Source of the DNA: Alviniconcha marisindica
Taxonomy: Eukaryota; Mollusca; Gastropoda; Provannidae
Reading direction: 5' to 3'
Assembly (NCBI GenBank): GCA_018857735.1
Contig: JABMCL010002167.1
Location: 672,501 to 736,500 of the forward strand
Length of the DNA stretch: 64,000 nt
Shown here: piece by piece, positions 40,993 to 63,500 of the stretch
Layout: each line of letters opens with the position of its first letter
Position numbering within the stretch: position 1 is the first letter of the stretch
Position numbers and translations under genes: made by a program
The notes under the pieces: model-generated
What the model was told of the DNA's origin: nothing
Database searches by the model: none
The model's input: the letters and a program-made list of their open reading frames with translations, nothing else

Positions 40993-41115
40993 TCAGTGCT
41001 CCAGGCCCTGAGTGAAGTTGTCGATCTGAGCGTTGAGTCGCTGCTCCAGGTCGTGGGCATGCTTGTGCTCCTTGCTGTAGAAGGCGTTGGACACCTGCTC
41101 CGCCACGTCTGGGAG
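40993..41115 (-). CDS. Coiled-coil gene, exon 9 (last)
   Basis: Acceptor tgctgacag| at 41116; phase 0 entry, 40 codons, TGA at 40995-40993. Reads LPDVAEQVSNAFYSKEHKHA then HDLEQRLNAQIDNFTQGLEH, an amphipathic helix. GC-rich codon use contrasts with the flanking repeats. The phase matches the donor of exon 8. Confidence 0.75.
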   Translation of the reverse strand, partial: LPDVAEQVSNAFYSKEHKHAHDLEQRLNAQIDNFTQGLEH

Positions 41116-41272
41116 CTGTCAGCACAGAAATGCACACCATGCATGATACCAATTTAACAATAATAACAATCATCGTGGGGTCTTAGAGAGCGCCCATTCT
41201 CAAATGAGCCCCAGGGGCGTACATTTCATTCAGCGTAAAGACAACCAACATCCAAAACACACACGATATTAA

Positions 41273-41484
41273 CCCCTTCACTGCCCCAGCCTGTAAAATT
41301 TCTGGGTTGAAAGACAGATGGACATTATATTTTCCGGTCTGACAACGCATCTACTTTTAATGCTATGCGTTTTGATCAAAATCCTTTCACATGCCAGTGC
41401 AAAAAAGAAAACAAAAAGGCTTAAGGGTTTCAAATTTTGCACTTTTATTGGTCGTTTTCAAGTGACATCACAGCAGTGAAGGGG
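41273..41484. mobile_element. MITE copy B, piggyBac-type (TTAA target)
   Basis: Perfect 12-bp terminal inverted repeats (CCCCTTCACTGC ... GCAGTGAAGGGG) flanked on both sides by TTAA (41269-41272 and 41485-41488). This is the best-preserved of three copies. It lies in the last intron of the coiled-coil gene. No coding capacity. Confidence 0.88.
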
Positions 41485-41529
41485 TTAATCTACACAAATT
41501 CATCATCACTTTACAGTTGTTTCACAGTT

Positions 41530-41862
41530 TTTAGGTCTTCGTTATCCCTTGCAGGAAATTTGGGCCGCCCTACATGAGGGTAAGGCTAAACAGCAGTGCT
41601 ACCCATTCCTGCCAGTGTGTGCAGTGCCTTCATGTGTCCAAACACTGATATGTCTGCTGGTATTGGGGATTTTTAATGTGCACACAGATGTTGATGCGTG
41701 CGATTGTACACAGGGGGCTGCACAAACGCTGTAATGTAGTCTGCACTGAAAGCTGACCCTGGGAGAAAAATTCTGTATCACCCTGGGGAACTGAATCGGC
41801 ATCATTACTGAACCCGGCTTTTCAGTCTGATGCTCTGCCAACGGAGCTATCCTACTCCATAG
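41530..41862 (-). mobile_element. tRNA-derived SINE
   Basis: The minus strand opens at about 41860 with a tRNA-like head (ggatagctccgttggcagag, then catcagactg, then a B-box-like gggttcagtaat). The body (ccccagggtgatac; tctcccagggtcagcttt; cattaaaaatcccc) is shared with the copy at 62340-62567. The anticodon region cannot form a good cloverleaf, so it is not a functional tRNA gene. Confidence 0.7.
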
Positions 41863-41879
41863 TGCGTTTTTTTTTAGCG

Positions 41880-43200
41880 CGTCTCACCTCATCTTCAGAA
41901 CCAGTGTGCAACTCTTAACATGTCAGCATGTCTGTGAGTGTGCCTCACCTTCTCTGCAGAACAAGCGTGCAACTCTAGCAGGTCAGTATGTCTGTGAGTG
42001 TCTCGTCTCATCTTCAGAACCAGTGTGCAACTCTAGCAGGTCAGTATGTCTGTGAGTGTCTCGTCTCATCTTCAGAACCAGTGTGCAACTCTAGCAGGTC
42101 AGTATGTCTGTGAGTGTCTCGTCTCATCTTCAGAACCAGTGTGCAACTCTAGCAGGTCAGTATGTATGTGAGTGTCTCGTCTCATCTTCGGAACCAGTGG
42201 CAGTGTGCAACTCTAGCATGTCAGTGTGTCTGTGAGTGTCTCACCTCGTCTTTAGAACCAGTGTGCAACTCTAGCAGGTCAGTATGTCTGTGTCTCGTCT
42301 CATCTTCAGAACCAGTGTGCAACTCTAGCAGGTCAGTATGTCTGTGAGTGTCTCGTCTCATCTTCAGAACCAGTGTGCAACTCTAGCATGTCAGCATACC
42401 AGTGAGTGTGTCTCACCTTGTCTTCAGAACAAACATGCAACTCTAGCATGTCAGTAAGTGTGTCTCTCCTCGTCTTCAGAACCAGTGTGCAGCTCTAGCA
42501 TGTCAGTATGTCTGTGAATCTGTCTTGCCTCATCTTCAGAACCAGCATGCAACTCTAGCATGTCAGTATGTCTGTGAATCTGTATTGCCTCATCTTCAGA
42601 ACCAGTGTGCAGCTCTAGCATGTCAGTATGTCTGTGAATCTGTATTGCCTCATCTTCAGAACCAGTGTGCAGCTCTAGCATGTCAGTATGTCTGTGAATC
42701 TGTATTGCCTCATCTTCAGAACCAGTGTGCAGCTCTAACACTGAGCATTTCTCACTCTATGTTAGTATGTCTGTGAATCTGTCTTGCCTCATCTTCAGAA
42801 ACAGCGCATGACTCTAGCATGTCAGTATGTCTGTGAATCTGTCTTGCCTCATCTTCAGAACCAGCGCATGACTCTAGCATGTCAGTATGTCTGTGAATAT
42901 GTCTTGCCTCAACTTCAGAACCAGCGCATGACTCTAGCATGTCAGTATGTCTGTGAATATGTCTCTCCTCATCTTCAGAACCAGCGCATGACTCTAGCAT
43001 GTCAGTATGTCTGTGAATATGTCTTGCCTCATCTTCAGAACCAGCGCATGACTCTAGCATGTCAGTATGTCTGTGAATATGTCTTGCCTCATCTTCAGAA
43101 CCAGCGCATGACTCTAGCATGTCAGTATGTCTGTGAATATGTCTTGCCTCATCTTCAGAACCAGCGCATGACTCTAGCATGTCAGTATGTCTGTGAGCGT
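41880..43200 (-). repeat. 60-bp minisatellite derived from the exon 8 donor
   Basis: From 42470 to 43200 an almost perfect 60-bp unit; from 41880 to 42470 shorter, more variable units of the same family (about 55-65 bp). On the minus strand each unit reads gttctgaagatgag + g(t/c)(g/a)agac + cacagacatactgacatgct + agag, matching the exon 8 end (tccgaggacgag|gtgagaca). Distal units keep |GTGAGAC donors (for example at 41888/41887), while many proximal units have GC in place of GT. The proximal part is open in the exon 8 frame as a 20-residue repeat (SEDEARHIHRHTDMLESCAG). Confidence 0.9.
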
Positions 43201-43207
43201 GTCTCAC

Positions 43208-43377
43208 CTCGTCCTCGGAGCTGGAGTGAGGCAGCTCAAGCCTGTCCACTTTGGGGTACTGCTGTTCACTGACCAGTGACATGGGCTCTGACCCGTGACT
43301 GTCGTCAGGCTGATAAGAGTACTGAACTGTTCGCCGAGTACCCGCCTCGTGCAGCCTGCGTTCCTCCGCAGCAATGC
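43208..43377 (-). CDS. Coiled-coil gene, exon 8
   Basis: Acceptor gatgttaacag| at 43378, donor GACGAG|GTGAGAC at 43208/43207. 170 bases: two complete the split Arg codon from exon 7, then 56 codons. The translation AAEERRLHEAGTRRTVQYSY continues through QPDDSHGSEPMSLVSEQQYP to the acidic end SSSEDE. Ser/Asp/Glu-rich and probably disordered. The frame stays open past the donor into the downstream array, so a longer alternative exon is possible. Confidence 0.75.
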
Positions 43378-43384
43378 CTGTTAA

Positions 43385-44215
43385 CATCAAATGGGGTTTG
43401 CTGACAATCAAATGCACAACTATACAATAAATCACAAAGCTACATTCGTGATCTCCAGAGCAGACACTAACCCCTTAACTGCCTCAGCTCGTACATTTTC
43501 CAGGCTGAAAAATGCCCGCATAAACGCCTGCAAACCGCATATTTGAGGGGTCTATAACAACTCTACTTTCAATACTGTGGATTTGGGTAGAAGTCCTTTG
43601 ACGTGCTCGTGCAAAGAGGGGGAAAAGCCGTAATGATTTCAAATTTGGTTGTTTTTTGAATGATGGTGCGGCAAGCACAGCAGTGAAAGGCTTAAATTTT
43701 GAAGTATAATCTAATAATAACAAATGCATAATTACTCAAGAATTTACAAAGCTACATACATGAGTGATCTCCAGAGCAGACATTAAATTTTGAAGTATAA
43801 TGACACTCAAATGCATAACTACACAATAATTTACAAAGCTATATACATGAGTGATCTCCAGAGCAGACTAAATTCTGAAGTATAATGACACTCAAATGCA
43901 TAACTACACAATAATTTACAAAGCTACATGAGTGATCTCCAGAGCAGACATTAAATTCTGAAGTATAATGACACTCAAATGCATAACTACACAATAATTT
44001 ACAAAGCTACATGAGTAATCTCCAGAGCAGACATTAAATTCTGAAGTATAATGACACTCAAATGCATAACTACACAATAATTTACAAAGCTACATGAGTG
44101 ATCTCCAGAGCAGACATTAAATTTTGAAGTATAATGCCACTCAAATGCATAACTACACAATAATTTACAAAGCTACATGAGTGCTCTCCGGAGCAGACGT
44201 TAAATTTTGAAGTAT
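43385..44215. repeat. 83-bp tandem array interrupted by MITE C
   Basis: About six copies of a unit containing gaagtataatgacactcaaa, tgcataactacacaataatt and gatctccagagcagacatt. The leftmost partial copy (43385-43470) adjoins the exon 8 acceptor and is cut off from the rest by the MITE. More diverged relatives continue to about 44400. Confidence 0.9.
43471..43691. mobile_element. MITE copy C, inserted in a minisatellite unit
   Basis: Begins CCCCTTAACTGC, ends GCAGTGAAAGGC; flanked by CTAA (43467-43470) and TTAA (43692-43695). Its flanks, joined, reconstruct the 83-bp unit of the neighbouring array (gcagaca-ttaa-attttgaagtata), giving an empty-site comparison that supports insertion at TTAA. 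It lies just upstream of exon 8. Confidence 0.85.
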
Positions 44216-44499
44216 CACTCGTGACAGAAATTCACAAATCAGTTCTCTCAAAAACCTGGCCGTTATACATGTTTTAATTAAAAAGGAAAGGTTGATGATC
44301 AAACGCATGACTATGCAGTAACTTTACAAACAGATTTTAGTGACCTCCGTAGGAGACGTCAGATTCTGAAACATTAGCCTGGTGGAAATTCACAAATCTG
44401 TTACTAAAATAACCTGCCCTAGACAGTACTCAAATACAGTTGCATGTGACTCTTCTTAACGATGACCACTGCTGCTCCTCATTTGATGGGTCTACTGAT

Positions 44500-45060
44500 G
44501 GATAATCTATAGATGCTACGGGATAGGACACCATCAGCCTTGTCTGTCAGAATAAACACACTACCGTACTACTACTGCTGGCAGAGGTACAACTACTGCA
44601 GCTATTAGAGGTGCTACTACCGCTATAGAACAGGACACCATCAGCCTTGTCTGTCAGAATAAACACACTACGGTACTACTGCTGCTGGCAGAGGTACAAC
44701 TACTGCAGCTATTAGAGGTGCTACTACTGCTATAGAACAGGACACCATCAGCCTTGTCTGTCAGAATAAACACACTACCGTACTACTACTGCTCGTAGAG
44801 GTACAACTACTGCAGCTATTAGAAGTGCTACTACCGCTATAGAACAGGACACCATCAGCCTTGTCTGTCAGAATAAACACACTACGGTACTACTACTGCT
44901 CGTAGAGGTACAACTACTGCAGCTATTAGAAGTGCTACTACTGCTATAGAACAGGACACCATCAGCCTTGTCTGTCAGAATAAACACACTACCGTACTAC
45001 TACTGCTCGTAGAGGTACAACTACTGCAGCTATTAGAGGTGCTACTACCGCTGAAGCTTC
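44500..45060. repeat. 107-bp tandem array ending in a trinucleotide tract
   Basis: Five copies of a unit with ggacaccatcagccttgtct, gtcagaataaacacactacc, and ACT/CTG triplets. After the last copy the triplets run on as degenerate (ACY)n and CAC repeats to about 45180. Confidence 0.9.
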
Positions 45061-45179
45061 TGCAATTACTATCGCATAATTACTACTTCCGCCACCACAA
45101 CTACCACCACCACAACTACCACTACTGCGGCTACAACTTCTGCTACAAGATATACTACAGCAGCTACTACTGCTACCAG

Positions 45180-45360
45180 TCTAATATTGATTTTGATCTT
45201 GTAGGTCATGGTGGGTCACAGGATCAAAAGTGAGGTTGGACTGTGTAAAAACGGTAATTTGGTCTCAAGACCCGCCATGACCTAGTAAGTAAGTAAGTTG
45301 GTGTTTTACGCCCAGTCAACCAGTGCGGTTATATCAGGGTGACCGCCACGACCTATCTCA
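45180..45360. mobile_element. Dispersed-repeat fragments
   Basis: 'ggtgttttacgcccagtcaaccagtgcggttatatcagggtga' type text (about 45299-45342) resembles 2871-2913 (ggtgttttacgccgagtcaa, gttatatcagggtga), so this is a dispersed element with two copies. Next to it, 'gtaggtcatggtgggtcacagg' is related to the 74-bp array unit that follows. Confidence 0.5.
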
Positions 45361-46135
45361 TTAAGAATGACCCCATGTCAATAGATATATCGCAACCTTG
45401 CTTTTGATCTTGTGACCCACGGCGACCTAGCGCATTAAGAATGACCCCATGTCAATAGATATATCGCAACCTTGCTTTTGATCTTGTGACCCACGGCGAC
45501 CTAGCGCATTAAGAATGACCCCATGTCAATAGATATATCGCAACCTTGCTTTTGATCTTGTGACCCACGGCGACCTAGCGCATTAAGAATGACCCCATGT
45601 CAATAGATATATCGCAACCTTGCTTTTGATCTTGTGACCCACGGCGACCTAGCTCATTAAGAATGACCCCATGTCAATACAGTTCACAACCTTGCTTTTG
45701 ATCTTGTGACCCATGGCGACCTAGCTCATTAAGAATGACCCCATGTCAATAGATATATCGCAACCTTGCTTTCGATCTTGTGACCCACGGCGACCTAGCT
45801 CATTAAGAACGACCCCATGTCAATAGATATATCGCAACCTTGCTTTCGATCTTGCGACCCACGGCGACCTAGCTCATTAAGAATGACCCCATGTCAATAG
45901 ATATATTGCAACCTTGCTTTCGATCTTGTGACCCACGGCGACCTAGCTCATTAAGAATGACCCCATGTCAATAGATATATCGCAACCTTGCTTTTGATCT
46001 TGTGACCCACGGCGACCTAGCTCATTAAGAATGACCCCATGTCAATAGATATATCGCAACCTTGCTTTTGATCTTGTGACCCACGGCGACCTAGCCCATT
46101 AAGAACGACCCCAAGTCCATGGAGAGATTGCAACA
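45352..46135. repeat. 74-bp tandem array
   Basis: About ten copies of a unit with ttaagaatgaccccatgtca, atagatatatcgcaaccttg, ttttgatcttgtgacccacg and gcgacctag. Unit starts are exactly 74 bp apart (45361, 45435 and so on). A diverged copy runs on to 46190, close to the exon 7 donor. Single inverted relatives occur at 54645-54680 and near 55000, so the unit was probably recruited from a dispersed element. Confidence 0.93.
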
Positions 46136-46228
46136 TGCTTTCAATCTTGCCGCCAGCTGTGATCTGTCTCATTAAGCACGGTCCATGTCTTTGGTTCCCC
46201 AAACACGACAGCGGAAACAAGTACGTAC

Positions 46229-46389
46229 GGAGGTTCTGCCGTGAGCTCTGGCTCATCTGAGCTTCCAGCCTGGCTTTCTGCGCCTCCAGAAACTGCAGCT
46301 GGTCGTCGTAGCGACGGATGCTGGAATCCAGGTAGTCGTCCATAGCGCTGAATCGCTCAGAGCCAGACTCCGTGTTGCCCAGGGAACCA
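46229..46389 (-). CDS. Coiled-coil gene, exon 7
   Basis: Donor CTCC|GTACGT at 46229/46228 (phase 1). Two acceptors are possible. The one at 46430 (ggccccag|) leaves the wrong phase for exon 6. The one at 46390 (tcattcctcag|TGG) joins exon 6 in phase 2 to give DKH-S-GSLGNTESGSERF, so it is preferred. Reads 53 codons including MDDYLDSSIRRYDDQLQFL and EAQKARLEAQMSQSSRQNL, a helical segment. The extended form from 46429 would be used only if an unseen phase-1 exon precedes it. Confidence 0.7.
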
Positions 46390-46499
46390 CTGAGGAATGA
46401 GTGATTCCAGTGATGCATTATTTCCAAGCCTGGGGCCAATTACATAGGTGAAGTGAACATGCAGTTACAGTATCCACTTTTAGCCCCGTCGGTTTGCAG

Positions 46500-46649
46500 T
46501 CCTCAAATGGTGTGCGAATGTGTGTGTGTGTGTGTGTGTATGCGTGCGTGTGCGTGTGTGTGCGTGCGCATGTGAGTGTGCACTGGCGTAGTACGGAATG
46601 AACTAATATGCGAACATGTCAACACAGTGGACACTTCAAGTTTATTCTG

Positions 46650-46711
<62 letters not shown>
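46500..46711. repeat. (TG)n and (CA)n microsatellites
   Basis: Interrupted TG/GCGTG repeats at 46510-46580 and an uninterrupted CA run at 46652-46711. A 26-bp segment (acattcaagtttattctgtc with flanks) is present on both sides of the CA run (46630-46655, 46727-46750). Confidence 0.95.
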
Positions 46712-46714
<3 letters not shown>

Positions 46715-46759
46715 GCAAGCACGCACACATTCAAGTTTATTCTGTCCACACATACACAC

Positions 46760-47044
46760 ACACAGAGAAGCACACATGCGTTCTCATACCATTTGAGGAC
46801 TGTGAAGTGACAGGGCTAAAAATGGATATTGCCCAAGCAGTCACATACAACCATTCATGCATGTAGTCTGTATAATGCTCCTGTACATATGACACAGATA
46901 ATGACAGCAATAATGCCAAGAACCCTTGTTTCTAAAAATGGAGTTGTACCTCAATACAAGGAAACATATACAAAGATAGGAAATGAACAGCACAACATGA
47001 GTGAATGAGTAAACATTCACAGTCAACATGTACTTCAAAAAACA
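46760..47044. other. Intronic DNA, nothing seen
   Basis: No exon, repeat array or element recognised. Confidence 0.4.
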
Positions 47045-47754
47045 AAAAAAAGAGACAGGATCTTGTCTCATTCACCTGTGTTTGACAGGATGCAGGATCT
47101 TGTCTCATTCACCTGTGTTTGACAGGATGCAGGATCTTGTCTCACCTGTGTTTGACAGAATGCAGGATCTTGTCTTGCTCACCTGCACTTATCTGACAGG
47201 ATGCAGGATCTGACCTCATTCACCTGTTTGACAGGATGCAGGATCTGGTCTCACTCACCTATTTGACATAATGCAGGATCTTGTCTTGCTCACTTGTGTT
47301 TATCTGGCAGGATGCAGGATCTGGTCTCACTCACTTGTGCATATCTCACAGGATATTGTCTTGCTCATCTGCACTTATTTGACAGGACACAGGATCTGGT
47401 CTTGCTCACCTGTGTGTATCTGACACAATGCAGGAACCAGTCTTGCTCACCTGTCTTTATCTCACAAGATGCAGTCTCATTCACCCGAATTTGACACCCT
47501 GGCCTGACTCACCTGTGTCTGTCCATCAAAATGCAGGATAGTCTTGCTCACCTGTGCTTGTGCGTCAAAATGCAAGATCTAGTCTCACTCACCTCTGTGT
47601 TTGTCAGAATACAGGATACGCCCTCATTCACCTGTATTTGTCCGTCAGAATGCAGGATCTAGTCTTGCTCACCTCTGCTTGTCTGTCAGAATGCAGGATC
47701 TAGTCTTGCTCACCTGTGTTTGTCCGTCAGAATGCAGAATACAGTCTCGCTCAC
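47045..47754 (-). repeat. ~40-bp minisatellite derived from the exon 6 donor
   Basis: About 17 variable units. On the minus strand each contains a copy of the exon 6 end and its donor: (t)gacggacaaacacag|gtgagc, followed by aagac(t/c)agatcctgcattc. The copies nearest exon 6 (47640-47754) keep gacggacaaacacag|gtgagc almost intact; those further away lose the exon match ('tgtcaaacacaggtgaatga') but retain an AG|GTGA core. The array touches the true donor directly. Confidence 0.88.
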
Positions 47755-47891
47755 CTGTGTTTGTCCGACAAGATGCTGGTGTGGGATGTGTCAGTCCTTG
47801 CGGAGTTGTGCTGACTGCGGATGATCTGCTCCACATCCTCCACACTGTTACGCAGAACGTTCATCTCGCGTCGCATCAAGTGGCTCTGAGT
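47755..47891 (-). CDS. Coiled-coil gene, exon 6
   Basis: Acceptor actctgtgcag| at 47892, donor AACACAG|GTGAGC at 47755/47754 (phase 2). It is open in one frame only; the other two have early stops. Reads TQSHLMRREMNVLRNSVEDV then EQIIRSQHNSARTDTSHTSI and LSDKH plus a split Ser codon. The first half is heptad-like helix and the second half polar linker. Confidence 0.75.
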
Positions 47892-47899
47892 CTGCACAG

Positions 47900-48530: not shown

Positions 48531-48533
48531 TAC

Positions 48534-48638
48534 ATTTGGTGCATAACACTCGTTGTAATCTCGGCCAGCCTGCTGCAACATTTCTCGCCTCATGCGGCGA
48601 TTTTCGGAACGCAGCGAGTCAACCTGAGATTGTGCAAC
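48534..48638 (-). CDS. Coiled-coil gene, exon 5
   Basis: Acceptor taaccccgcag| at 48639, donor ACCAAAT|GTAAGA at 48534/48533; phase 0 on both sides, 35 codons. Reads VAQSQVDSLRSENRRMRREM then LQQAGRDYNECYAPN. Strong heptad pattern in the first 25 residues. Confidence 0.78.
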
Positions 48639-48759
48639 CTGCGGGGTTAGAAATGAACACACAAACAAAACACACTGGTTAGTCACCACAGCATGGGGGG
48701 GAGGGGGGGGGGGTCACCAAAGGGTGTGTTGAGGGGTGAGGGTGGGGGTTCAAACAGAA

Positions 48760-49999: not shown

Positions 50000-51770
50000 C
50001 CTTTGCAATTGGCTGAAGGGCTAACTGCAAAAACTAGTACACAACCAGTCTTTGCTAACTTATGGCTTCTTCTCCTGTTGCTAAAAAGTCAAAGCGGGAA
50101 GGGAGTGACATATGTATAAGTATGATGCATCTTCTTTCTGGTGACACTTTTGTGGCCTATGTGATGTTCCCGCTGTTGTCGGTGAAGAGAGAAATGCTGC
50201 TCAATCCAGTTGATCCCCCCCCCCCCCAAAGCTTGATCCAAGGCACGTAACCAAAATTAATACTCCTATTTTGTTTAGGTTGTAAAAAGGACTGCATTAT
50301 CTTAGTGTTGAGTAGCAGCTGGTGATGACTGGTTTTGTTTTAACATAATGTCGTGTGTGTCTTGTTTTGAACTTGTTTTGAACCAAACCTCTGAATAAGT
50401 TCTGTTTTAGATAATACGATAGGAAAACCCCAATGAGCAGAATGCATTTTCCAAAGTAGTTTTTAACTGTATTTCTTAGAGGGTTTAAAATACACAAGCA
50501 TATATAAATACATTTTAAAATTGTTAACATATAAAGACATTTAGGACTGTTTTTAAAAAAAAGGGAAAAAAAGAGGAAAAATAAAGATATATATATAAAA
50601 ACAAAGTTTAAATAAAAATGAAAGTGACAACATCTGTCTTTTTAAGAACATTTTATCCAATGGATTTTTGTTTTTGTTTTTTGGTCAGTGCATTACCAAC
50701 ATGGACAGGAAAAACAAACAAACAAAAACAACAACAAAACAACAATAACAACAACAACATTATATTAAAGTTGAGAAGATGGTTGGGAAATAAAAGGCAC
50801 ACATTTTGAACACATTGGTGGGGGAAAAAATATCACAGCACAAAATCAACAACAGCAAGCCACTCCAACCTGTATTCTTGATTCAAACAGCCATAAATAT
50901 ACATTCAGATTAAAAGTCACTAACAGATAACAACATCCTTACTAATGATGATTAATTACTTCAAAGCAACAACAGATAATATGATAAAGTCTGCACAGAA
51001 AAGCAAAACTGCATGCTTGCTACACAATGGAAGGTGGTGACAGTGAATTTGTGAATTTTATACTGCCAATTTCAAAGGCATTTTTGGAGGCCCATAGTCA
51101 GAATGTGTCTGGTAACAAGCAATAACTTGTTGCTCATGCTATAGGATGCCCCAAAACGCACTGTTTTCACAAACTCGCGATCTTCTGGTCAGCCAAAAAA
51201 CGATGCAAAGACACTTTTTTTCCACCCTCCATCCCCTTTCCCCAGTAATTTTTGCAACAGCAACTGTGGTGGCATTTGTATTGCTTCGCAATTCTAGGTT
51301 CAACTTCCATTGTTATACACAGCGTGAAGCAACGCCTACTCAGAAATCGGCCCGGAAGTGACGCTGTGACTTCTTGTGTGAAAGGTTACAAAGGGCATTC
51401 ACTCGTGCAAACCAGCTTCACTGAACCGCCCAACAGACTGATGTTGGATGATTTTTAGGGTGGTTGTAAATGTGGGATTCCACTGTGGCACTGAAAGGAA
51501 GAAGGGTTTCTGCAACAGTGTGTCATCTTCCTCTTTCTTCTCACTACCTCTCAAAATTGTCCACCCTCTAGGCACAGCCTAGCATCAAGGCAAATCTGTG
51601 TCAGGAGCTAAAAATAACTGAGATAAAAATAGATATGGGTACAGGCTTTTGTCAAGAATGCACCAGGATCAACCTGTCCTTCAAGTTACCCTTTGGGAAG
51701 GATTTTTTTCAATCTTCTGCCAGCATGTAGCGGGACAAACCACAAGACCCCTAGATACGGTGCTGTGCAT
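50000..51770. other. Intron 4, no feature seen
   Basis: AT-rich DNA, C run at 50217-50227, CAA-rich tract at 50715-50757. Around 51146-51440 the text is richer in GC but no exon could be supported on either strand. Confidence 0.4.
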
Positions 51771-52085: not shown

Positions 52086-52283
52086 CTTCAGCTCTGCAAC
52101 CTTTTTATCCAGCGTGTCCGACTCGTCACGCAAGCTGCGCTCCAGCTCTGAGGACTTCTCACTAAGGGTGGCCAGGGAGGAGTTCCGCTGATGTAGCTCT
52201 GTGGTCAGCTCACCCAGCTTCTGTCGCATGGCCGTCAGCTCCACACTGTGGGTGTCGTTGACGGTGGCCAGCTTGTCCTGCAG
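52086..52283 (-). CDS. Coiled-coil gene, exon 4
   Basis: Acceptor atccctactcag| at 52284, donor GCTGAAG|GTAACG at 52086/52085; phase 0 on both sides, 66 codons. Segments include LQDKLATVNDTHSVELTAMR, QKLGELTTELHQRNSSLATL and SEKSSELERSLRDESDTLDK. This is a continuous heptad-repeat coiled coil with no proline. Confidence 0.85.
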
Positions 52284-52299: not shown

Positions 52300-53350
52300 A
52301 ACGTAATGAATGTGATGTTCAGAGGACTGTGTCATCACCGAAATTGTCCCGCTGAGTCATGACTGACTGTGGCCAGCTACTGTTTCGCAGCTGAGCAGGG
52401 ATGAGAAATATAAAGAAAAGGATTTCTGGATTACTGTATCATCACCATCTTTGTGGTGTGAGAGTTAATACTAACAGTGGCCATGATTGTCTTGTAGTTA
52501 GGATGTCTGGGTTACTGTATCGTCACCACGATCTTTGTGCTGTGAGAGTCACTACTAACAGTGGCCATGATTGTCTTGTAGTTAGGATTACTGTATCATC
52601 ACCACAATCTCTGTGCTGTGAGAGTCACTACTAACAGTGGCCATGATTGTCTTGTAGTTAGGATTACTGTATCATCGCCACGATCTTTGTGCTGTGAGAG
52701 TCACTACTAACAGTGGCCATGATTGTCTTTTAGTTAGGATTACTGTATCATCACCACAATCTTTGTGCTGTGAGAGTCACTACTAACAGTGGCCATGATT
52801 GTTTTGTAGTTAGGATTACTGTATCATCACCACAATCTTTGTGCTGTGAGAGTGACTACTAACAGTGGCCATGACTGTCTTGTAGTTAGGATTACTGTAT
52901 CATCACCACATTCTTTGTGCTGTGAGAGTCACTACTGACAGTGGCCATGATTGTCTTGTAGTTAGGATTACTGTATCATCACCACAATCTCTGTGATGTG
53001 AGAGTCACTACTGACAGTGGCCATGATTGTCTTGTAGTTAGGATTACTGTATCATCACCACAATCTTTGTGCTGTGAGAGTGACTACTGACAGTGGCCAT
53101 GATTGTCTTGTAGTTAGGATTACTGTATCATCACCACAATCTTTGTGATGTGAGAGTCACTACTAACAGTGGCCATGATTGTCTTGTAGTTAGGATTACT
53201 GTATCATCACCACAATCTTTGTGCTGTGAGAGTCACTACTGACAGTGGTCATGATAGTCGTGGAGCTAGGATGTCTGGGATACTGTATCGTCACAATCTT
53301 TGTTTTGTGACAGCCACTAGTGACAGTGGCTGTGACTGTCTTTGAGCTGA
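52300..53350 (-). repeat. 76-bp minisatellite derived from the exon 4 acceptor
   Basis: About 12 copies. On the minus strand the unit contains ctacaagacaatcatggcca + ctgttagtagtgac + tctcac, aligning with the exon 4 start ctgcaggacaagctggccac + cgtcaacgacacccac. Two outer copies also keep the acceptor: tctcatccctgctcag| near 52391 and tctcacctctgctcag| near 53348. In the central units the tract before the exon match has decayed to aatccta. Confidence 0.85.
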
Positions 53351-53508
53351 GCAGAGGTGAGAAATATAAAGAAGTAATAATGATGCACATTTATCACGTA
53401 CTCATCAACGCCCCGAGTGCTCACATGACACATACTCACTTAAAACACAGTATTCTTCACACATGCAGAGCACAGTCCTACTCATGCAATTTACATAAAG
53501 CATTATTT

Positions 53509-53551: not shown

Positions 53552-53858
53552 ATACACAAAGTATGTACAATGAATTCAAACCATTTATCAGTACTACTGT
53601 GTGCAGACAATTGACATTCTACTACTGCTGCAAGAAGAAACGAGAAAAGAAGAAAAAAAGAAAAAAACAAAACAAAAGAAAAAGAGAGACGACACAGATA
53701 CATATATATATATATACATATCATACACATTTCACAAAACAGACCTTTTTAACTTCCAGCTGAAGGCAACGCAAAAAAAAAAACACACAAAAAAAAAACT
53801 GAAGAGAAAGAGAGAAGACAGATACACATACATATCATACACATTTCACAAAACGGAC

Positions 53859-53909
53859 CTTTTTAACTTCCAGCTGAAGGCAACGCACTTCTGCATTTTT
53901 CTCAGCTTC
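53859..53909 (-). CDS. Coiled-coil gene, exon 3 (51-bp micro-exon)
   Basis: Acceptor tttgttgctag| at 53910, donor TTAAAAAG|GTCCGT at 53859/53858. Seventeen codons in phase 0: EAEKNAEVRCLQLEVKK. It joins exon 2 (..LLKEK) and exon 4 (LQDKL..) without breaking the heptad pattern. A second copy upstream has a one-base deletion. Confidence 0.7.
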
Positions 53910-54255
53910 CTAGCAACAAAGACATAACCATTGTTAACCACGCAGAAAAACAAGACATCACCCTTCAGTTTTTTTATGAAGAAAATATTTGTTCTTCAGT
54001 GTGATATATATTGTACACATTTCACAAAACAAACCTTTTTAACTTCCAGCTGAAGGCAACGCAAAAAAAACAACAAAAAAACTGAAGAGAAAGAGAGAAG
54101 GCACAGATACACATACATATCATACACATTTCACAAAACAAACCTTTTTAACTTCCAGCTGAAGGCAACGCAAAAAAAAAAACAAAAAAAAAACTGAAGA
54201 GAACGAGAGAAGACACAGATACACATACATATCATACACATTTCACAAAACAAAC

Positions 54256-54305
54256 CTTTTTAACTTCCAGCTGAAGGCACGCACTTCTGCATTTTTCTCA
54301 GCTTC
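54256..54305 (-). pseudogene. Frameshifted duplicate of exon 3
   Basis: Same acceptor (ttgttgctag|) and almost the same sequence as 53859-53909 but one base short (gcgtgcc instead of gcgttgcc), giving 50 bp. Its donor is weaker (AAAAAG|GTTTGT). Inclusion would shift the reading frame, so it is either skipped or a poison exon. Flanking intron text (aacaaagacataaccattgt) is duplicated with it. Confidence 0.75.
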
Positions 54306-54469
54306 CTAGCAACAAAGACATAACCATTGTTAACCACGCAGAAAAACAAGACATCACCCTTCAGTTTTTTTATGAAGAAAATATTTGGTCTTCAGTGTGA
54401 TAGTGATACATGTGCAAATGTTTACAATCCCATCGACCCATGTAGAGAAAAAATACAGCCGTAACAAAT

Positions 54470-54800: not shown

Positions 54801-55254
54801 CCTTGCATTTCTACTTCGAAATATTTGGACGAAATCAAAACCTTTTTTTCTTTCAGAAACTTCCTACGGGAGCTGGTGGGAAGAAGAAGGGTGGCTGAGC
54901 AAGGTTCAAGAAGATGAGCAGGCACACTTCAAGCTAAGGAATGTTGCGTCTGAGTTGACATTTTTCAGCTCATCCCAACTTCATTTTTTGTATCATGTGA
55001 CCCACTATCACCTGGTACATTAAGTCATTATGGATGACCCTAGTCAGTACTGTGCCCAGTCTCAGTTTTTTTCCCCTGTGACCTGATGTCACCAACATCA
55101 TGAATATTCTAAAAAAGAAGAAAAAGAAAAAAAAGGTACATTACCCATAGAAAAAAAGAACAGAAACGCCCAAAGGGGAAATAAGGTATGCAGCAACAAG
55201 AAAGAAAAAAGACCTGAGTTTATGCAGACACAAAAATATGTCATTGGATCGGAG

Positions 55255-56165
55255 CTGTACAAAAGAAACATAAAGAAAACTGTGGATCAGAGAGTACAAC
55301 AGAGATTGGATTGGACTGTACAACAGAAACAGAAAGGATGCTGTAGACTGGAGCCATACAACAGAAAGAGAAAGGACACTGTGGATTGGAGCCGTACAAC
55401 AGAAACAGAAAACACACTGTGGACTGGAGCCATACAACAGAAACAGAAAGGACACTGTGGATGGGAGCCATACAACAGAAACAGAAAGGGAACTGTGGAC
55501 AGGAGCTGTACAACAGAAACAGAAAGGGACACTGCGGATCAGAGCCGTACAATAGAAACAGAAAGGACACTGTGGATGGGAGCCATACAACAGAAACAGA
55601 AAGGGAACTGTGGATAGGAGCTGTACAACAGAAACAGAAAGGGACACTGTGGATCAGAGCCGTACAATAGAAACAGAAAGGAAATTGGACTGGAGCCATA
55701 CAACAGAAACAGAAAGGACACTGTGGATTGGAGCTGTCCAACAGAAAGGACACTGTGGATCAGAGCCGTACAACAGAAACAGAAAGGACACTGTGGATTG
55801 GAGCTGTACAACAGAAAGGATACTGTGGATCAGAGCCGTACAACAGAAACAGAAAGGACACTGTGGATTGGAGCTGTACAACAGAAAGGACACTGTGGAT
55901 TGGAGCTGTACAACAGAAAGGACACTGTGGATTGGAGCTGTACAACAGAAAGGACACTGTGGATTGGAGCTGTACAACAGAAACAGAAAGGACACTGTGG
56001 ATTGGAGCTGTACAACAGAAAGGACACTGTGGATCGGAGCTGTACAACAGAAAGGACACTGTAGATCGGAGCTGTACAACAGAAAGGACACTGTAGATCG
56101 GAGCTGCACAACAGAAAGGACACTGTGGATCGGAGCTGTACAACAGAAACAGAAAGGAAACTGGT
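55255..56165. repeat. 32/45-bp tandem array abutting the exon 2 donor
   Basis: A 32-bp unit (aaaggacactgtggattgga + gctgtacaacag) with an optional 13-bp aaacag duplication making 45-bp units. On the minus strand each unit ends in a pyrimidine-rich tctgttgtacag, a good acceptor mimic. The array begins about 8 bases after the exon 2 donor. Open frames of up to 223 codons exist in several phases and on both strands because the unit lacks stops; they are not taken as genes. Confidence 0.93.
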
Positions 56166-56168
56166 CAC

Positions 56169-56277
56169 CTTTTCCTTCAGTAGCTGGTGGCCGCTGTCTC
56201 GTGCATTCTGTGAGATGTCGAGCTGACTTGAGGCAACCAGGTTTTGCTTCAGTTGCTTCATTGTCTGCTTCTGGGAC
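56169..56277 (-). CDS. Coiled-coil gene, exon 2
   Basis: Acceptor tggtatcatcag| at 56278, donor GAAAAG|GTGACC at 56169/56168. One base completes the split Lys codon from exon 1, then 36 codons: SQKQTMKQLKQNLVASSQLD then ISQNARDSGHQLLKEK. Heptad-like. The next in-frame AG within the exon (ggtcccag|) would give the wrong entry phase for exon 1. Confidence 0.75.
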
Positions 56278-56309
56278 CTGATGATACCATCAAAACAATA
56301 AGAACCAGT

Positions 56310-57320
56310 AATGCAGTGCTCTAAAATTTGTCCTGTGGTTTGTCATGGTGCTTATCTTCATAACCATAACCAGCAGTATGGTGCTTTAATGTTTGTTGTT
56401 TGTTCATAACAGTAAGAAGCAGTATAGCAAAACAGTACTCTAAAATGTATTGCGTGGTTTGCTGTGGTGCTTATCTTCATAACCATAACCAGCAGTATGG
56501 TGCTTTAATGTTTGTTGTTTGTTCATAACAGTAAGAAGCAGTATAGCAAAACAGTACTCTAAAATGTATTGCGTGGTTTGCTGTGGTGCTTATCTTCATA
56601 ACCATAACCAGCACTATGGTGCTTTAGTATTTGTTGTTTGTTCATAACAACAAGCAGTAAAACAGTGCTCTAAAACATGTTGTGAGGTTTGTCATGGTGT
56701 TTATCTTAATAACCATAACCAGCAGTATGGTACTTTAATGTTTGTTGTTTGTTCATAACAACAAGCAGTAAAACAGTGCTCTAAAACATGTTGTGAGGTT
56801 TGTCGTGGTGTTTATCTTAATAACCATAACCAGCAGTATGGTACTTTAATGTTTGTTGTTTGTTCATAACAACAAGCAGTAAAACAGTGCTCTAAAACAT
56901 GTTGTGAGGTTTGTCTGGTGCAAAACATAACCAGCAGTAGTTTAAATGCTTAACATGTTGTGAGGTTTGTCGTGGTGTTTATCTTAATAACCATAACCAG
57001 CAGTATGGTACTTTAGTGTTTGTTGTTTGTTCATAACAACAAGCAGTAAAACAGTGCTCTAAAACATGTTGTGAGGTTTGTCGTGGTGCACAATAACCAG
57101 CAGTAAGTATAATGCTGTAACATTTGTGGTTTGTTTTGTTTGTTCTGGTGTTTACCATCATACCAATATGAACCAGTAATGCAGTCCCCTAAAACGTGTT
57201 GTGTGGTTTGTCGTGGTGCTTATTTTCATATCAATAACCCACAGTAAGTATAATGCTGTAACATTTGTTGTTTGTTTTGTTTGTTCTGGTGTTTACCGTC
57301 ATAATAAAACCAGTAATGCA
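56310..57320. repeat. ~120-bp tandem array, diverged
   Basis: Seven or eight copies containing 'gtggtgtttatcttaataacc', 'ataaccagcagtatggt' and 'tttgttgtttgttcataaca'. The first three copies are most alike; right-hand copies are shortened. Confidence 0.88.
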
Positions 57321-57329
57321 GTGCACCCA

Positions 57330-57890
57330 AACCAGTAAACCATTTCATGCGCGCAGATGAACAACAACAATAGTAAACAAACATTAATTAAACAAAAATC
57401 CAAACAATGCAAAATGAAAAAATGAAGAAAAAAATCTTGCAAACACAACCAAACTTATCCTAGTACCAAACAGTCCAAACTATGAATGTTGTGAAGTTCA
57501 AACCAAACAGTTTTTACCATTCAGTGTTAGCCTTTCGAATGCTGCTTCTCAAAATGCGCCTATGATTAAACGGACACAGTAAGCAATTAGTGATATCAAA
57601 ACATGTTGGTTTAATAGAAAGCTCAATCAGTTCCATTCCACTCTTTCATCTCCTTCTCTGTACCTCTCCATCTCCAGGAGATTAGTGTGAGATTCACCAG
57701 CACAAGCAGTTTGCACCACACTACAGCAGTACGAATTTGTACATCAGTGGCCGAAGGTGCCTATGGTGTCATTCTTCCCCAATGGCCGGACATTCCAACA
57801 ACAAATTCATCAACAAAACGATCTCTGTCAACCGAGCTATCAGGGAAAGGCAATGCTCACTGCTGAGGCATCTTCCAAGAAACAGTTCAT
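57330..57890. other. Intron 1 unique segment
   Basis: No exon or element identified. A short CpG-poor open stretch on the plus strand (57737-57967) has no family resemblance. Confidence 0.4.
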
Positions 57891-57899
57891 CTGTTTTAC

Positions 57900-58440
57900 A
57901 AGACGCAAGACAACTTCATACATCCATTGCCGAAATCACATGGTCTGCCATAAAACCTATCGTATAACAAGACAACTTCATAAATTGCCGAAATTACACG
58001 GTCTGCCATAAAACCTATCATATAACAAGACAACTTCATAAATTGCTGAAATGACATGGTCTGCCATAAAACCTATCATATAACAAGACAACTTCATAAA
58101 TTGCCGAAATTACACGGTCTGCCATAAAACCTATCATATAACAGACAACTTCATAAATTGCCGAAATTACACGGTCTGCCATAAAACCTATCATATAACA
58201 GACAACTTCATAAATTGCCGAAATTACACGGTCTGCCATAAAACCTATCATATAACAGACAACTTCATAAATTGCCGAAATGACATGGTCTGCCATAAAA
58301 CCTATCATATAACAGACAACTTCATAAATTGCCGAAATTACATGGTCTGCCATAAACCTATCATATAACAAGACAACTTCATAAATTGCCGAAATGACAT
58401 GGTCTGCCATAAAACCTATCATATAACAAGACATTGCACC
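57900..58440. repeat. 57-58 bp tandem array
   Basis: About nine copies of acaagacaacttcataaatt + gccgaaattacacggtctgc + cataaaacctatcatata. Very similar copies; open on the minus strand as a YDRFMADHVISAIYEVV-type repeat, which is regarded as a by-product. Confidence 0.93.
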
Positions 58441-58899
58441 AATGAGACATGTTCTCGGTCTTCCAGATTACAATCCACTCACATAAACAGTTCTGTGTTC
58501 ACTGAGCATCCCTTAACACAGGGGTCCTACGGTCTACGATATGATGGAAAGTTGGTCTGTTCAGTGAAATGGAAAGAAAGTGGACCACTCTCTTGAAACA
58601 TGTAAACTGCACCAATTTCATTTATTTACCACTAATGACTGTTTTATTTTTTATTTTTTAATCTAGCTCAGCACCATTCAGCGCCTATTGGAGCACTGAT
58701 GATGTTTTCTGAGACTCTGATGTTCACAGCACAAAAGTAAAGTTAGAAACTGATTTTTTTTAAATCACCATTCAAGTTTTACTGTGAAACAAACATACGG
58801 ATCATGCACATGCATTATTACACATGAATTATGTTTTAAAGGGCAAGCACTGCAAAAAGAACACTGTGATCGTTGGATGAACTACCTTGGGGTTATAGG

Positions 58900-59234
58900 G
58901 GGGCGATCCACCAGCCTGCAAAGTGTAGAGACCAGGCACTTTAACACACAGCCACATTCAAGTGCAGAGACCAAGCAGTTCAACACACAGCCACATTCAA
59001 GTGCAGAGACCAAACAGTTCAACACAAAGCCACATTCAAGTGCAGAGACCAAGCAGTTCAACACAGCCACATTCACGTGCAGAGACCAGGCACTTCAACA
59101 CACAGCCCACATTCAAGCGCAGAGAATGGGCACTTTAAAACATAGCCACATTCAAATGCAGAGACCAGGAACTTCATGACATATCCCACATTCAAATGCA
59201 GAGACAAAGCAGTTCAGTGCACTGCCATATTTAA

Positions 59235-59269
<35 letters not shown>

Positions 59270-59640
59270 TAAGTGCAGAGATCAGGCACCTCAACACATA
59301 GTCCACATCCAAGTGTGCAGCTCAAGCAGTTCAACACACAACCAGATTCAAGTGCAGAGACCAGGCACTTTAACTCACAGCCACATTCAAGTGCAGAGAC
59401 CAGGCACTTCAACACACAGCCACATTCAAGTGCAGAGACCAGGCACTTTAACTCACAGCCACATTCAAGTGCAGAGACCTGGCACTTTAACACACAGCAC
59501 ATTCAAGTGCAGAGACCTAGCACTTTAACACACAGCCACATTCAAGCGCAGAGACCAAGCAGTTTAACACACAGCCACATTCAAGTGCAAAGACCAGGCA
59601 CTTTAACACACAGCCCACATTCAAATGAAGAGATCGTGTG
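58900..59640. repeat. 39-40 bp tandem array
   Basis: About 17 copies of cacattcaagtgcagagacc + aggcacttcaacacacagc. An (AT)n run (59238-59266) is embedded. On the minus strand each unit has ggtctctgcacttgaat, an imperfect acceptor-like tract. Confidence 0.92.
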
Positions 59641-59879
59641 GTTGATCATTTGATACATATATATATGCCCTGTCGCACACAGATTTTTCCATATGTGGGA
59701 CATCTATATATTATATAGTATTTTCTGTGGTGGAGGGTGAGGGGGCAACACAAAGTCACAAGTGTGCAGATCAAAACAGTAAACATATAAACATGACTAA
59801 CTGTGAAAATAAAACAGCTCAACATAAAAGCCACGTTAAATAAACAAAGCAAGCAATTCAACACATCAAAGCATATCGC

Positions 59880-60850
59880 CACATTCAAGCAAGGAAATCA
59901 AAAGGACCGCAGGCGGCAGTTCAAAGCATCGCCAAATAAAAGCGTGCAGATCAAAGCCGGTCCGACATGCAGCTGAGGGGGCACAGAGAAAAGCAACCAG
60001 TTCAACACAGATAGCCATGTTCAAGTATGCAGATCAAGAGATTCAACACATATCATATACTGATATAGCCACATTCAAGCCAGGAAATTAAAAGGATGAA
60101 AGCAAGCGGTTCAAAGCATCACCAAATAAAAGCGTGCAGATCAAAGCTGGCTCAACATGCAGCCGAGGGGGCGCTGAGGAAAACCAACAGTGCAACACAT
60201 AGCCACGTTCAAGCATGGAAATCAAGCCGTTCAACACATATACAGCCACATTCAAGCCAGGAAATTGAAAGGATGAAAGCAAGCGGTTCAAAGCATCACC
60301 AAATAAAAGCGTGCAGATCAAAGCTGGCTCAACATGCAGCCGAGGGGGCGCTGAGGGAAACCAACAGTTCAACACACAGCCACGTTCAAGCATGGAAATC
60401 AAGCCGTTCAACACATATATCAGCCACATTCAAGCCAGGAAATCAAAGGATGAAAGCAAGCGGTTCAAAGCATCACCAAATAAAAGCGTGCAGACAAAGC
60501 TGGCTCAACAGCAGCCTAGGGAGGTGCTGAGGGAAACCAACAGTTCAACACATAGCCAGCGTTCAAGCATGGAAATCAAGCTGTTCAACACATATACAGC
60601 CACATTCAAGCCAGGAAATCGAAAGGATGAAAGCAAGCGGTTCAAAGCATCACCAAATAAAAGCGTGCAGATCAAAGCTGGCTCAACATGCAGCCGAGGG
60701 GGCGCTGCGGGAAACCAAACAGTTCAACACACAGCCACGTTCAAGCATGGAAATCAAGCCGTTCAACACATATCATACAGCCACATTCATGCCAGGAGAT
60801 CAAAGGATCAAAAGATGCGGTTCAAAACATCGCCAGGTTCAAGAGCGGAG
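59880..60850. repeat. ~180-bp tandem array
   Basis: Five copies of a long unit with gaaagcaagcggttcaaagc, atcaccaaataaaagcgtgc, gctggctcaacatgcagccg, ttcaagcatggaaatcaagc and cagccacattcaagccagga. The last phrase shares 'cagccacattcaag' with the 39-bp array, so the larger unit may contain a captured piece of the smaller one. Confidence 0.92.
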
Positions 60851-60953
60851 AGCCAACAAGCAGGCTGAATGCTGAAGCACTGATCCAACAGTGAGGAAGT
60901 GAGGCCAGCCAGTTCAGCAGAGAACCATTTAACGCGACACGCACAGCACTTAC

Positions 60954-61040
60954 TTCAGGTCGTCCCTGGCGTTCTGGAGAGCCTCCTTCAGTCTCCTGAC
61001 CTGGTCCGATTCCTCAAAGTCATGAGGTTCACCCATGTGC
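60954..61040 (-). CDS. Coiled-coil gene, exon 1 of those found (internal)
   Basis: Acceptor tctctgttttgcag| at 61041, donor CCTGAA|GTAAGT at 60954/60953. 87 bases: one completing base, 28 codons, two leftover bases. Reads HMGEPHDFEESDQVRRLKEA then LQNARDDL, with a split Lys. Entry phase 2 means a further upstream exon exists; it was not found in the window. The acceptor and exon start are repeated many times in the flanking arrays, so which copy is the true acceptor rests on the intact exon 3' half and donor being present only here. Confidence 0.72.
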
Positions 61041-61862
61041 CTGCAAAACAGAGAAGAGCTTTCCTCAATCTCCCGACCTGCTCCGATTCTTCAAAGTCAT
61101 GAGGTTCACCCATGTGCCTGCAAAACAGAGAAGAGCTTTCCTCAATCTCCCGACCTGCTCCGATTCCTCAAAGTCATGAGGTTCACCCATGTGCCTGCAA
61201 AACAGAGAAGAGCTTTCCTCAATCTCCCGACCTGCTCCGATTCCTCAAAGTCATGAGGTTCACCCATGTGCCTGCAAAACAGAGAAGAGCTTTCCTCAAT
61301 CTCCCGACCTGCTCCGATTCTTCAAAGTCATGAGGTTCACCCATGTGCCTGCAAAACAGAGAAGAGCTTTCCTCAATCTCCCGACCTGCTCCGATTCCTC
61401 AAAGTCATGAGGTTCACCCATGTGCCTGCAAAACAGAGAAGAGCTTTCCTCAATCTCCCGACCTGCTCCGATTCCTCAAAGTCATGAGGTTCACCCATGT
61501 GCCTGCAAAACAGAGAAGAGCTTTCCTCAATCTCCCGACCTGCTCCGATTCCTTCAAAGTCATGAGGTTCACCCATGTGCCTGCAAAACAGAGAAGAGCT
61601 TTCCTCAATCTCCTGACCTGCTCCGATTCTTCAAAGTCATGAGGTTCACCCATGTGCCTGCAAAACAGAGAAGAGCTTTCCTCAATCTCCTCGACCTGCT
61701 CCGATTCTTCAAAGTCATGAGGTTCACCCATGTGCCTGCAAAACAGAGAAGAGCTTTCCTCAATCTCCCGACCTGCTCCGATTCTTCAAAGTCATGAGGT
61801 TCACCCATGTGCCTGCAAAACAGAGAAGAGCTTTCCTCAATCTCCCGACCTGCTCTGATTCT
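61041..61862 (-). repeat. 77-bp minisatellite derived from the exon 1 acceptor
   Basis: About ten to eleven near-perfect units. On the minus strand each holds a full acceptor (cttctctgttttgcag|) followed by gcacatgggtgaacctcatg, actttgaggaatcgg and a diverged version of the exon text up to gctct. The real exon sequence therefore starts as one more unit and then leaves the repeat. One unit has an extra base near 61551 and another near 61690. Confidence 0.93.
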
Positions 61863-61864
61863 TT

Positions 61865-62180
61865 GAAGTTGTTGTTGATCGCTTTTATGTAACGCTATTC
61901 TCCGCTCTCGAGCAGACTCACTGCGCTCTTGTCGCATGTGACTCTAAATGAGTGACTGTAGCTCCTTACAGCGTGCTTTGAATATATATACACCCAAGTG
62001 GTGTACTTACAGTGCTGTTTGGTTCTTGCATGGCTGGTGCTACTTGAAACTGCTGCCGTGTCACAGTGTGTGTGTGTGTGGTGTAACATGGTTATTGTTT
62101 GATAGGCGACGATGGAAGACTACATTATTTAAGGTTCTGTTTGTTTGAAATGTATGCTAATGTGGTTTTTGTCATAAGAT
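61865..62180. other. Spacer between arrays, no gene seen
   Basis: Unique sequence with a short TG run (62066-62080). No exon recognised. Confidence 0.4.
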
Positions 62181-62255
62181 GTTTGTACAGCGCAGTGAGT
62201 TTAACTCTGTTTGAGAAAAGTGCTTTATAAGAATTATTTATTATTATTATTATCT
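62180..62255 (+). mobile_element. Retroelement 3' end with (ATT)n tail
   Basis: 'gtacagcgcagtgagttt' then 'gtgctttataag' then (ATT)n matches the end near 32948-33165. Such tails mark SINE/LINE 3' ends. Confidence 0.5.
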
Positions 62256-62339
62256 TGGCGTGTTCTGTGTACACCATTCAACCATATTACATCACTTCAT
62301 GCAAAGCCATATATATATATATATATACAATGTGAATAC

Positions 62340-62567
62340 ATATTTAGCTGTAACCAGCCACCTGAACTTTTGGCAGAATGACCAGGATTTTTTACGTGCT
62401 CTTGCAGTAACACAGAGGTGGAATCGATACTGAAATAAGATTCAGCACAGAAAGTTGACCATGGAAAAGAAAACTCTCCCGCCGCTCCCGCCACTGCCAG
62501 GACTCTTACCTGCGACCTTTCGATCACAAGGCTTTAGCTCTAACCACTAAGCTATCCCCACTCCCCC
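62340..62567 (-). mobile_element. tRNA-derived SINE, second copy
   Basis: The minus-strand head at about 62566 reads ggggatagcttagtggttag then agctaaagccttgtgatcga, tRNA-like with a clear A box and a decayed B box (ggtcgcaggtaagagtcc). The body (ctttccatggtcaactttct; gtaaaaaatcctgg) aligns with the element at 41530-41862. Confidence 0.7.
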
Positions 62568-63500
62568 AGTCATGAGGTTCATCCATGTGCCTGCAAGCAA
62601 ATCATTACGTTGCACACTCAGTGAAATGAAGCCCAGTCATGAGGTTCATCCATGTGCCTGCAAGCGAATCATTACGTTGCACGCTCAGTGAAATGAAGCC
62701 CAGTCATGAGGTTCATCCATGTGCCCGCAAGCAAATCATTACGTTGCACGCTCGGTGAAATGAAGCCCAGTCATGAGGTTCATCCATGTGCCTGCAAGCG
62801 AATCATTACGTTGCACGCTTGATGAAATGAAGCCCAGTCATGAGGTTCATCCACATGCCTGCAAGCGAATCATTACGTTGCACACTCGGTGAAATGAAGC
62901 CCAGTCATGAGGTTCATCCATGTGCCTGCAAGCGAATCATTACGTTGCACGCTCGATGAAATGAAGCCCAGTCATGAGGTTCATCCATGTGCCTGCAAGC
63001 GAATCATTACGTTGCACACTCAGTGAAATGAAGCCCAGTCATGAGGTTCATCCATGTGCCTGCAAGCAAATGATTATGTTGAATGCGCAGTGAAATGATG
63101 ACCAGTCATGAGGTTCATCCATGTGCCTGCAAGCGAATCATTACATTGCACGCTCGGTGAAATGAAGCCCAGTCATGAGGTTCATCCATGTGCCTGCAAG
63201 CAAATCATTACGTTTCACGCTCGGTGAAATGAAGCCCAGTCATGAGGTTCATCCATGTGCCTGCAATCATTATGTTGCATGCTCAGTGAAATGAAGCCCA
63301 GTCATGAGGTTCATCCATGAGCCTGCAAGCGAATCATTACGTTTCACGCTCGGTGAAATGAAGCCCAGTCATGAGGTTCATCCATGTGCCTGCAAGCGAA
63401 TCATTACATTGCACGCTCGGTGAAATGAAGCCCAGTCATGAGGTTCATCCATGTGCCTGCAAGCGAATCATTACGTTGCACACTCAGTGAAATGATGCAC
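62567..63500 (-). repeat. 67-bp minisatellite sharing the exon 1 acceptor
   Basis: About 14 copies. On the minus strand each contains (g)attcgcttgcag|gcacatggatgaacctcatg, that is, an acceptor and the first ~20 bases of exon 1, then actgggcttcatttcaccga and the next tract. It is a second, independent expansion of the same exon border as the 77-bp array, differing in the rest of the unit. Confidence 0.92.

Follow-up and report, generated by a model that had tools for sequence, protein, structure and literature searches.

Mirage-type minisatellites across exon–intron borders of CEP63 in the snail Alviniconcha marisindica

Introduction

One gene in the genome assembly of the snail Alviniconcha marisindica (817.6 Mb) has introns filled by minisatellites, several of which carry the border of an adjacent exon. 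The locus raises the question of whether splice junctions are preferred sites of minisatellite birth, or whether arrays that arise in a repeat-rich gene are tolerated where they happen to include a junction. The initial annotation of this DNA proposed a mechanism acting at junctions and knew of no standard feature class to which such arrays could belong.

Short repeats of this kind are known from human CBS, where a 31-bp exon 13/intron 13 repeat and 844ins68 are short tandem repeats that duplicate a splice junction; these are single loci in one gene, unlike the arrays of the snail gene, CEP63. Minisatellite-like tandem repeats across exon–intron boundaries have been published in amphioxus under the name of mirages, and the accounts cited here describe them in Adh3 and in the globins BflGb6 and BflGb9, with unit lengths of 10 to 160 bp (PMC3087553; PMC3902484; Canestro et al., 2002, NAR, cited there). 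RT-PCR in amphioxus was reported to suggest regular splicing despite the mirages (PMC3087553), and one of the accounts also describes PGBD5, with imperfect repeats of splice sites, and cites troponin C (PMC3902484). Internal tandem repeats at exon–intron boundaries have further been described in human segmental-duplication genes (PMC2812944).

Results

The gene is CEP63, and its exon model is confirmed by relatives

The analysed stretch of 64,000 nucleotides (hereafter the window; contig C2332, 672501–736500) contains the C-terminal half of CEP63 as nine exons, e1 to e9, on the minus strand (Table 1), and nine further exons, u1 to u9, were placed on the contig upstream of the window. The gene in total comprises 18 placed exons over approximately 38.3 kb; the u5 acceptor was not located, hence 33 usable borders. 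Without u5, the joined reading frame stays open from start to stop. Alignment to relatives is continuous through the junctions, which confirms the exon model, and the e1/e2 and e2/e3 regions are variable in this alignment, their length differing among species. The best protein matches to the window exons came from Pomacea canaliculata and Nucella lapillus, and the last 142 residues matched Babylonia areolata (79% identity over the whole stretch), Littorina saxatilis, Batillaria attramentaria, and an unnamed protein. The Babylonia relative matches the Pfam CEP63 family; a Pfam search with the 379-residue half encoded in the window gave only matches under the curated cut-offs. An Rfam scan and a tRNA scan found nothing. 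For e7, an acceptor at 46429 was rejected in favor of 46389, which is required by phase and agrees with the relatives. Of two Pomacea CEP63 isoforms examined, one (P0003) lacks the stretch equivalent to e3.

Table 1. Exons and tandem arrays of CEP63 in the window
Feature	Window positions	Strand	Basis or remark
Exon e1, 87 nt	60954..61040	-	GT/AG, phase, homology to snail CEP63
Exon e2	56169..56277	-	CEP63 exon model
Exon e3, 51 nt	53859..53909	-	CEP63 exon model
Exon e4	52086..52283	-	Exon model, relatives
Exon e5	48534..48638	-	No junction copies above threshold
Exon e6	47755..47891	-	Exon model, relatives
Exon e7	46229..46389	-	No junction copies above threshold; relatives
Exon e8	43208..43377	-	Exon model, relatives
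Exon e9, includes stop codon	40993..41115	-	Exon model, relatives
77-bp array, 11.4 copies	60988..61863	-	TRF; extends 53 nt into e1
67-bp array, 14 copies	62565..63495	-	TRF; e1 acceptor core within other sequence
e2-adjacent array without exon sequence	55243..56163	-	Starts ~6 bp beyond e2 donor
e3 array, 112-bp unit	53750..54310	-	TRF and border copies
Diverged 76-bp array	52320..53385 (TRF 52512..53272)	-	Tied to e4 acceptor via unit 52320..52440
~41-bp units across e6 donor	47056..47767	-	TRF and border copies
60-bp array across e8 donor	41881..43210	-	TRF and border copies

Between u4 and u6, in the region of exon u5 (contig C2332:740700–744400), approximately 48 residues that are conserved in snail relatives are only partly matched in the gene. 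By eye, sequence of the 77-bp array of u5 seems to have taken the place of part of this region, and a search of the whole genome with a 53-residue composite of the relatives found no other copy at E 0.001. Two CEP63 introns (window 51050–51450 and contig C2332:742750–743350) have in common a dispersed repeat a few hundred bases long, also recognized by eye. Elsewhere in the window, the minus strand carries a 505-residue open frame (25224–26741), which we take to be reminiscent of the TSC22D family and which had no Pfam match at E 0.001.

Local copies include exon sequence and the splice site at seven exons

The central 60 bases of each border were aligned to the surrounding sequence, and a border passed at a score of 36.5, above a shuffled null (n = 554; 99th percentile 30.5, maximum 34). 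Nine of the 33 borders passed. At eight of these, belonging to 7 of the 18 placed exons, the copies include exon sequence together with the splice site, and both boundary types are involved: five donors (u4, u5, e3, e6, and e8) and three acceptors (e1, e3, and e4). The e2 donor also passed (45), with only its intron side repeated. The best local copies scored 120 at the e1 acceptor, 114 and 113 at the e3 acceptor and donor, 52 at the e4 acceptor, 60 at the e6 donor, and 56 at the e8 donor; upstream of the window, the u4 and u5 donors scored 115 and 116. Similarity to the borders is thus far beyond shuffling, the e4 consensus excepted. The initial annotation had located exons and arrays correctly, and its reading of the arrays at e1, e4, e6, and e8 as copies of the gene's own borders is borne out, with e4 as the weakest case, by the comparison with shuffled controls.

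Copies spanning a border by at least 8 bp on each side number 70 at the eight borders: 5 at the u4 donor, 17 at the u5 donor, 10 (plus 14 shorter in the 67-bp array) at the e1 acceptor, 1 at the e3 acceptor, 4 at the e3 donor, 2 at the e4 acceptor, 9 at the e6 donor, and 22 at the e8 donor, with a lower score cut (36 instead of 44) for e4, e6, and e8. GT or AG is kept in 50 of the 70. The dinucleotide is lost in 20 copies: 18 belong to e8 and 2 to u5, where there is a gap; outside e8, it is kept in 46/48. The junction-bearing units measure 77, 67, 112, 76, 41, 77, 181, and 60 bp, and all but the last are not multiples of three.

Junction-bearing arrays are a minority in a gene that is dense in repeats. 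Of the 38.3 kb of the gene, 15.3 kb belong to 23 minisatellite arrays found by TRF, 18 of which contain no border in place; with a slightly different filter, minisatellite coverage is 0.41 in CEP63 compared with 0.14 outside the gene in the 153.9-kb stretch. At donors and acceptors alike, the copies adjoin the original, share its orientation, and hold contiguous exon and intron, which fits tandem duplication at the DNA level and not copying of spliced RNA. The reverse-transcribed splicing intermediates offered as one origin in the initial annotation are therefore not favored. All copy numbers come from one assembly, and the assembler might have mis-joined or expanded the arrays; we consider such an artifact extremely unlikely because the units differ from one another and from the exon, with subfamilies, and because similar arrays are found at kinase genes on other contigs (see below).

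Individual arrays differ in how far their copies keep the splice site

The unit of the 77-bp array consists of the acceptor tail and approximately 64 bp of e1 (the exon part by eye), and its 10 full border copies keep AG. Where e1 has GAC (Asp), the units have GAG (Glu) in 11/11 cases, and glutamate is found at this position in six of six aligned relatives; by parsimony, the exon would have changed after the array arose. Judged by these codons, the array is evidently old and evolves apart from e1, the two not being homogenized, and the contrast illustrates that an array can preserve the edge of an exon in an earlier state. The second e1 array, of 67-bp units, has 28 of 29 bp in common with the border (6 bp of intron and 23 bp of exon), as had been claimed for it, and AG is kept in 13/14 copies.

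At e3, which had been described as a multiplied micro-exon, the 3' end with its donor is present five times, the real exon included, and a second whole copy with a 1-bp deletion lies at 54305. The weakest case is e4: the 76-bp consensus by itself scores 21 against the exon border (P = 0.0065), and the array is linked to the acceptor by the unit at 52320–52440, which scores 52 against the border and 32 against the array. At the e6 donor, GT is kept in 9/9 spanning copies (15/15 at a lower cut), with an average identity of 0.82 between array columns and border, whereas at e8 GT is kept in 4/22 copies; we do not generalize from this contrast to selection against decoys.

Five places in 53765–54276 on the minus strand, the real e3 included, have CTTCAG and GT flanking an in-frame segment of 15 nt. 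Lying near T-rich tracts, these segments could be candidate micro-exons. In addition, two of the junction arrays are directly adjoined by candidate elements on the minus strand (window 41700–41870 and 62380–62565), which presumably resemble tRNA-derived SINE heads; ARAGORN found no tRNA.

The e8 array bears on whether the copies are used, that is, whether alternative donors and acceptors give exon-length or micro-exon variants of CEP63 that are kept by selection. A 240-residue open frame on the minus strand (window 42752–43474) runs from e8 onward through approximately seven 20-residue units in frame, and the 15-nt segments of the e3 copies and the Pomacea isoform that lacks the e3 stretch would also suit such a use. 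However, a 60-bp unit that is free of stops is expected to stay open when repeated, whatever its role, so the frame is no evidence of coding. Moreover, GT is lost in 18/22 e8 copies, most unit lengths would not preserve the frame, and the predicted proteins of four relatives (P0023–P0026; Babylonia, Littorina, and Batillaria included) join e8 to e9 without unit sequence. Use of the arrays under selection is, on balance, very improbable.

Preference for junctions within CEP63 depends on the count

By coverage, 9/33 borders are in the repeated state compared with 427/822 intron positions, so that borders are depleted (Fisher p = 0.007); this test is biased against borders because each intron array is counted once per unit. 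A circular shift gave 15.9 borders expected in the repeated state, and 8 were seen. The proportion of repeated positions is 0.15 in the exon at −45, 0.24 at the border, 0.59 in the intron at +200, and 0.53–0.57 beyond, with no peak at the junction.

Counting by array seed gave a different picture, although CEP63 was picked for the feature, so that its p values flatter a junction bias, and neighboring borders, the e3 pair for example, are not independent in these tests: with each position weighted by 1/copy number, 9/33 borders (27%) compare with 14.4% for introns (p = 0.039), and with each array's unit placed at random in the collapsed gene, 5/23 TRF arrays have a border in place compared with 2.3 expected (P = 0.067, strict), or 7/23 when the e3 and e4 arrays are counted (P = 0.005, lenient). 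In the upstream half of the gene, which was not seen when the initial annotation was made, two of four arrays contain a border. Junctions are therefore approximately twofold over-represented by array seed and under-represented by coverage, and the answer depends on the count.

Border-spanning arrays are also found at kinase exons

A sample that was not chosen for repeats was drawn from protein-kinase exons (PF00069). Among the 144 best-scored matches listed, 79 stop-free ones were judged internal-exon-like. Of these, 20 were retrieved together with flanks of 1 kb (one shortened by a contig end) and 18 with flanks of 150 bp; one lay too close to the end of its contig, and 40 were left out. Borders were called by script and not taken from annotation. 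L028, which seemed to be nearly a duplicate of L027 and had the same borders, was excluded, and the final set held 37 exons and 74 borders (19 wide and 18 short-flank loci). Two further calls were rejected: the L055 acceptor, which was mis-called (the true border scores 13), and the L043 donor, which is a GT microsatellite.

At the wide loci, 4/38 borders had local copies compared with a seed-weighted 4.1% in introns (p = 0.069); by coverage, 4/38 compares with 287/1689 (p = 0.38), and 2/11 TRF arrays included a border with 1.2 expected (P = 0.34). Of the short-flank borders, 4/36 passed initially and 2/36 held after checking. All kinases together gave 6/74 borders against 4.1% (p = 0.083), an expectation that comes from the 19 wide loci over a 1-kb range; for 36 of the 74 borders the flanks measured 150 bp, where copies may be missed. 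Copies with at least 8 exon bases were found at 4/37 kinase exons: the acceptors of L024 (a 51-bp unit including approximately 30 bp of exon, by eye), L043 (9 bp), and L044 (at least 30 bp) and the donor of L029 (17 bp). The L026 acceptor passed on its intron side alone, and the L032 acceptor (idx 1008) scored 64 with 2 bp of exon only. Border-spanning arrays in this genome are thus not confined to CEP63.

Pooling CEP63 with the kinases gave 15 borders compared with 7.8 expected (p = 0.009); the data not picked for the feature, u1 to u9 and the kinases, gave 8 compared with 5.3 (p = 0.16). A modest preference for junctions is possible. If junctions were true hot spots of minisatellite birth, for example through nicks or R-loops at the meeting of splicing and transcription or through short direct repeats around AG|GT, this would account for the excess at seed level, for arrays with unlike units at seven exons within a single gene, and for the borders in the upstream arrays. 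We nevertheless think such hot spots unlikely, given a distance profile without a junction peak, borders that are repeated less than introns by coverage, kinase exons that show no significant excess by coverage or TRF seeds, and the result in the unpicked data. For the junction-targeting mechanism of the initial annotation, the evidence is divided: the coverage test speaks against it, and the tests by array seed show the twofold excess.

Discussion

The explanation that we regard as probable is that the CEP63 arrays are mirage-type minisatellites, the outcome of ordinary minisatellite birth in a repeat-rich gene that is tolerated at junctions. Short segments of CEP63, some of them border-spanning, have been tandemly amplified in place. 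The short tandem duplications may arise by replication slippage or repair, and the arrays would then grow by unequal exchange. Because each copy comes with a splice site of its own, duplications that include a border could survive, the exon still being joined through an intact site. Splicing probably takes place at the real exon edge, which gives a normal exon, with the intronic copies as tolerated, putative decoys. Such decoys fit the unit lengths, as adding one unit would shift the reading frame for seven of the eight junction-bearing units, and also the joining of e8 to e9 without units in relatives. Special targeting of junctions would not be required, and the approximately twofold bias would remain compatible with this origin. 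Two observations count against it: the retention of GT or AG in nearly all copies outside e8 could mean that these sites are maintained, contrary to tolerated decoys, and the junction excess at seed level counts against plain minisatellite birth.

As described in the cited accounts, amphioxus mirages and the snail arrays have in common that tandem repeats span boundaries, at donors and acceptors, and that many units keep AG or GT. A further mirage trait given there, units homogenized apart from the cluster boundary (PMC3087553), was found in the snail 77-bp array, the sole array checked. Whereas these accounts have one or two mirages per amphioxus gene and units of up to 160 bp, CEP63 has arrays at seven exons and units of up to 181 bp, and the host is a snail, of another phylum. 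Known here from genome sequence, the CEP63 arrays have the sequence features of the mirage class, so that the statement that no standard feature class is known gives way to a structure of the same kind in amphioxus (PMC3087553; PMC3902484). The snail places mirage-type arrays in another phylum and at high density in one gene; a literature search among open-licence papers found no mollusc report of border-spanning minisatellites. The human segmental-duplication genes share with the snail that boundary repeats can alter gene structure. According to that account, variable repeats lengthen exons or introns in recently arisen human paralogs and may give rise to new introns (PMC2812944), whereas in snail CEP63 the introns are filled and the coding exons are as in relatives.

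Mirages are reported for a handful of amphioxus genes in the accounts cited, compared with seven CEP63 exons and 4/37 kinase exons in this snail, which makes it a convenient place to test splice-site choice among many near-identical sites. The arrays would also allow a test of whether repeats of this kind are a source of new introns and exons. A bolder proposal, which we hold to be rather doubtful, is that snail junctions seed minisatellites two to three times more than other intron sequence throughout the genome, with the spliceosome ignoring the decoys. If true, this would fill very many introns with decoy splice sites and would tie intron growth to a DNA lesion coupled to splicing or transcription.
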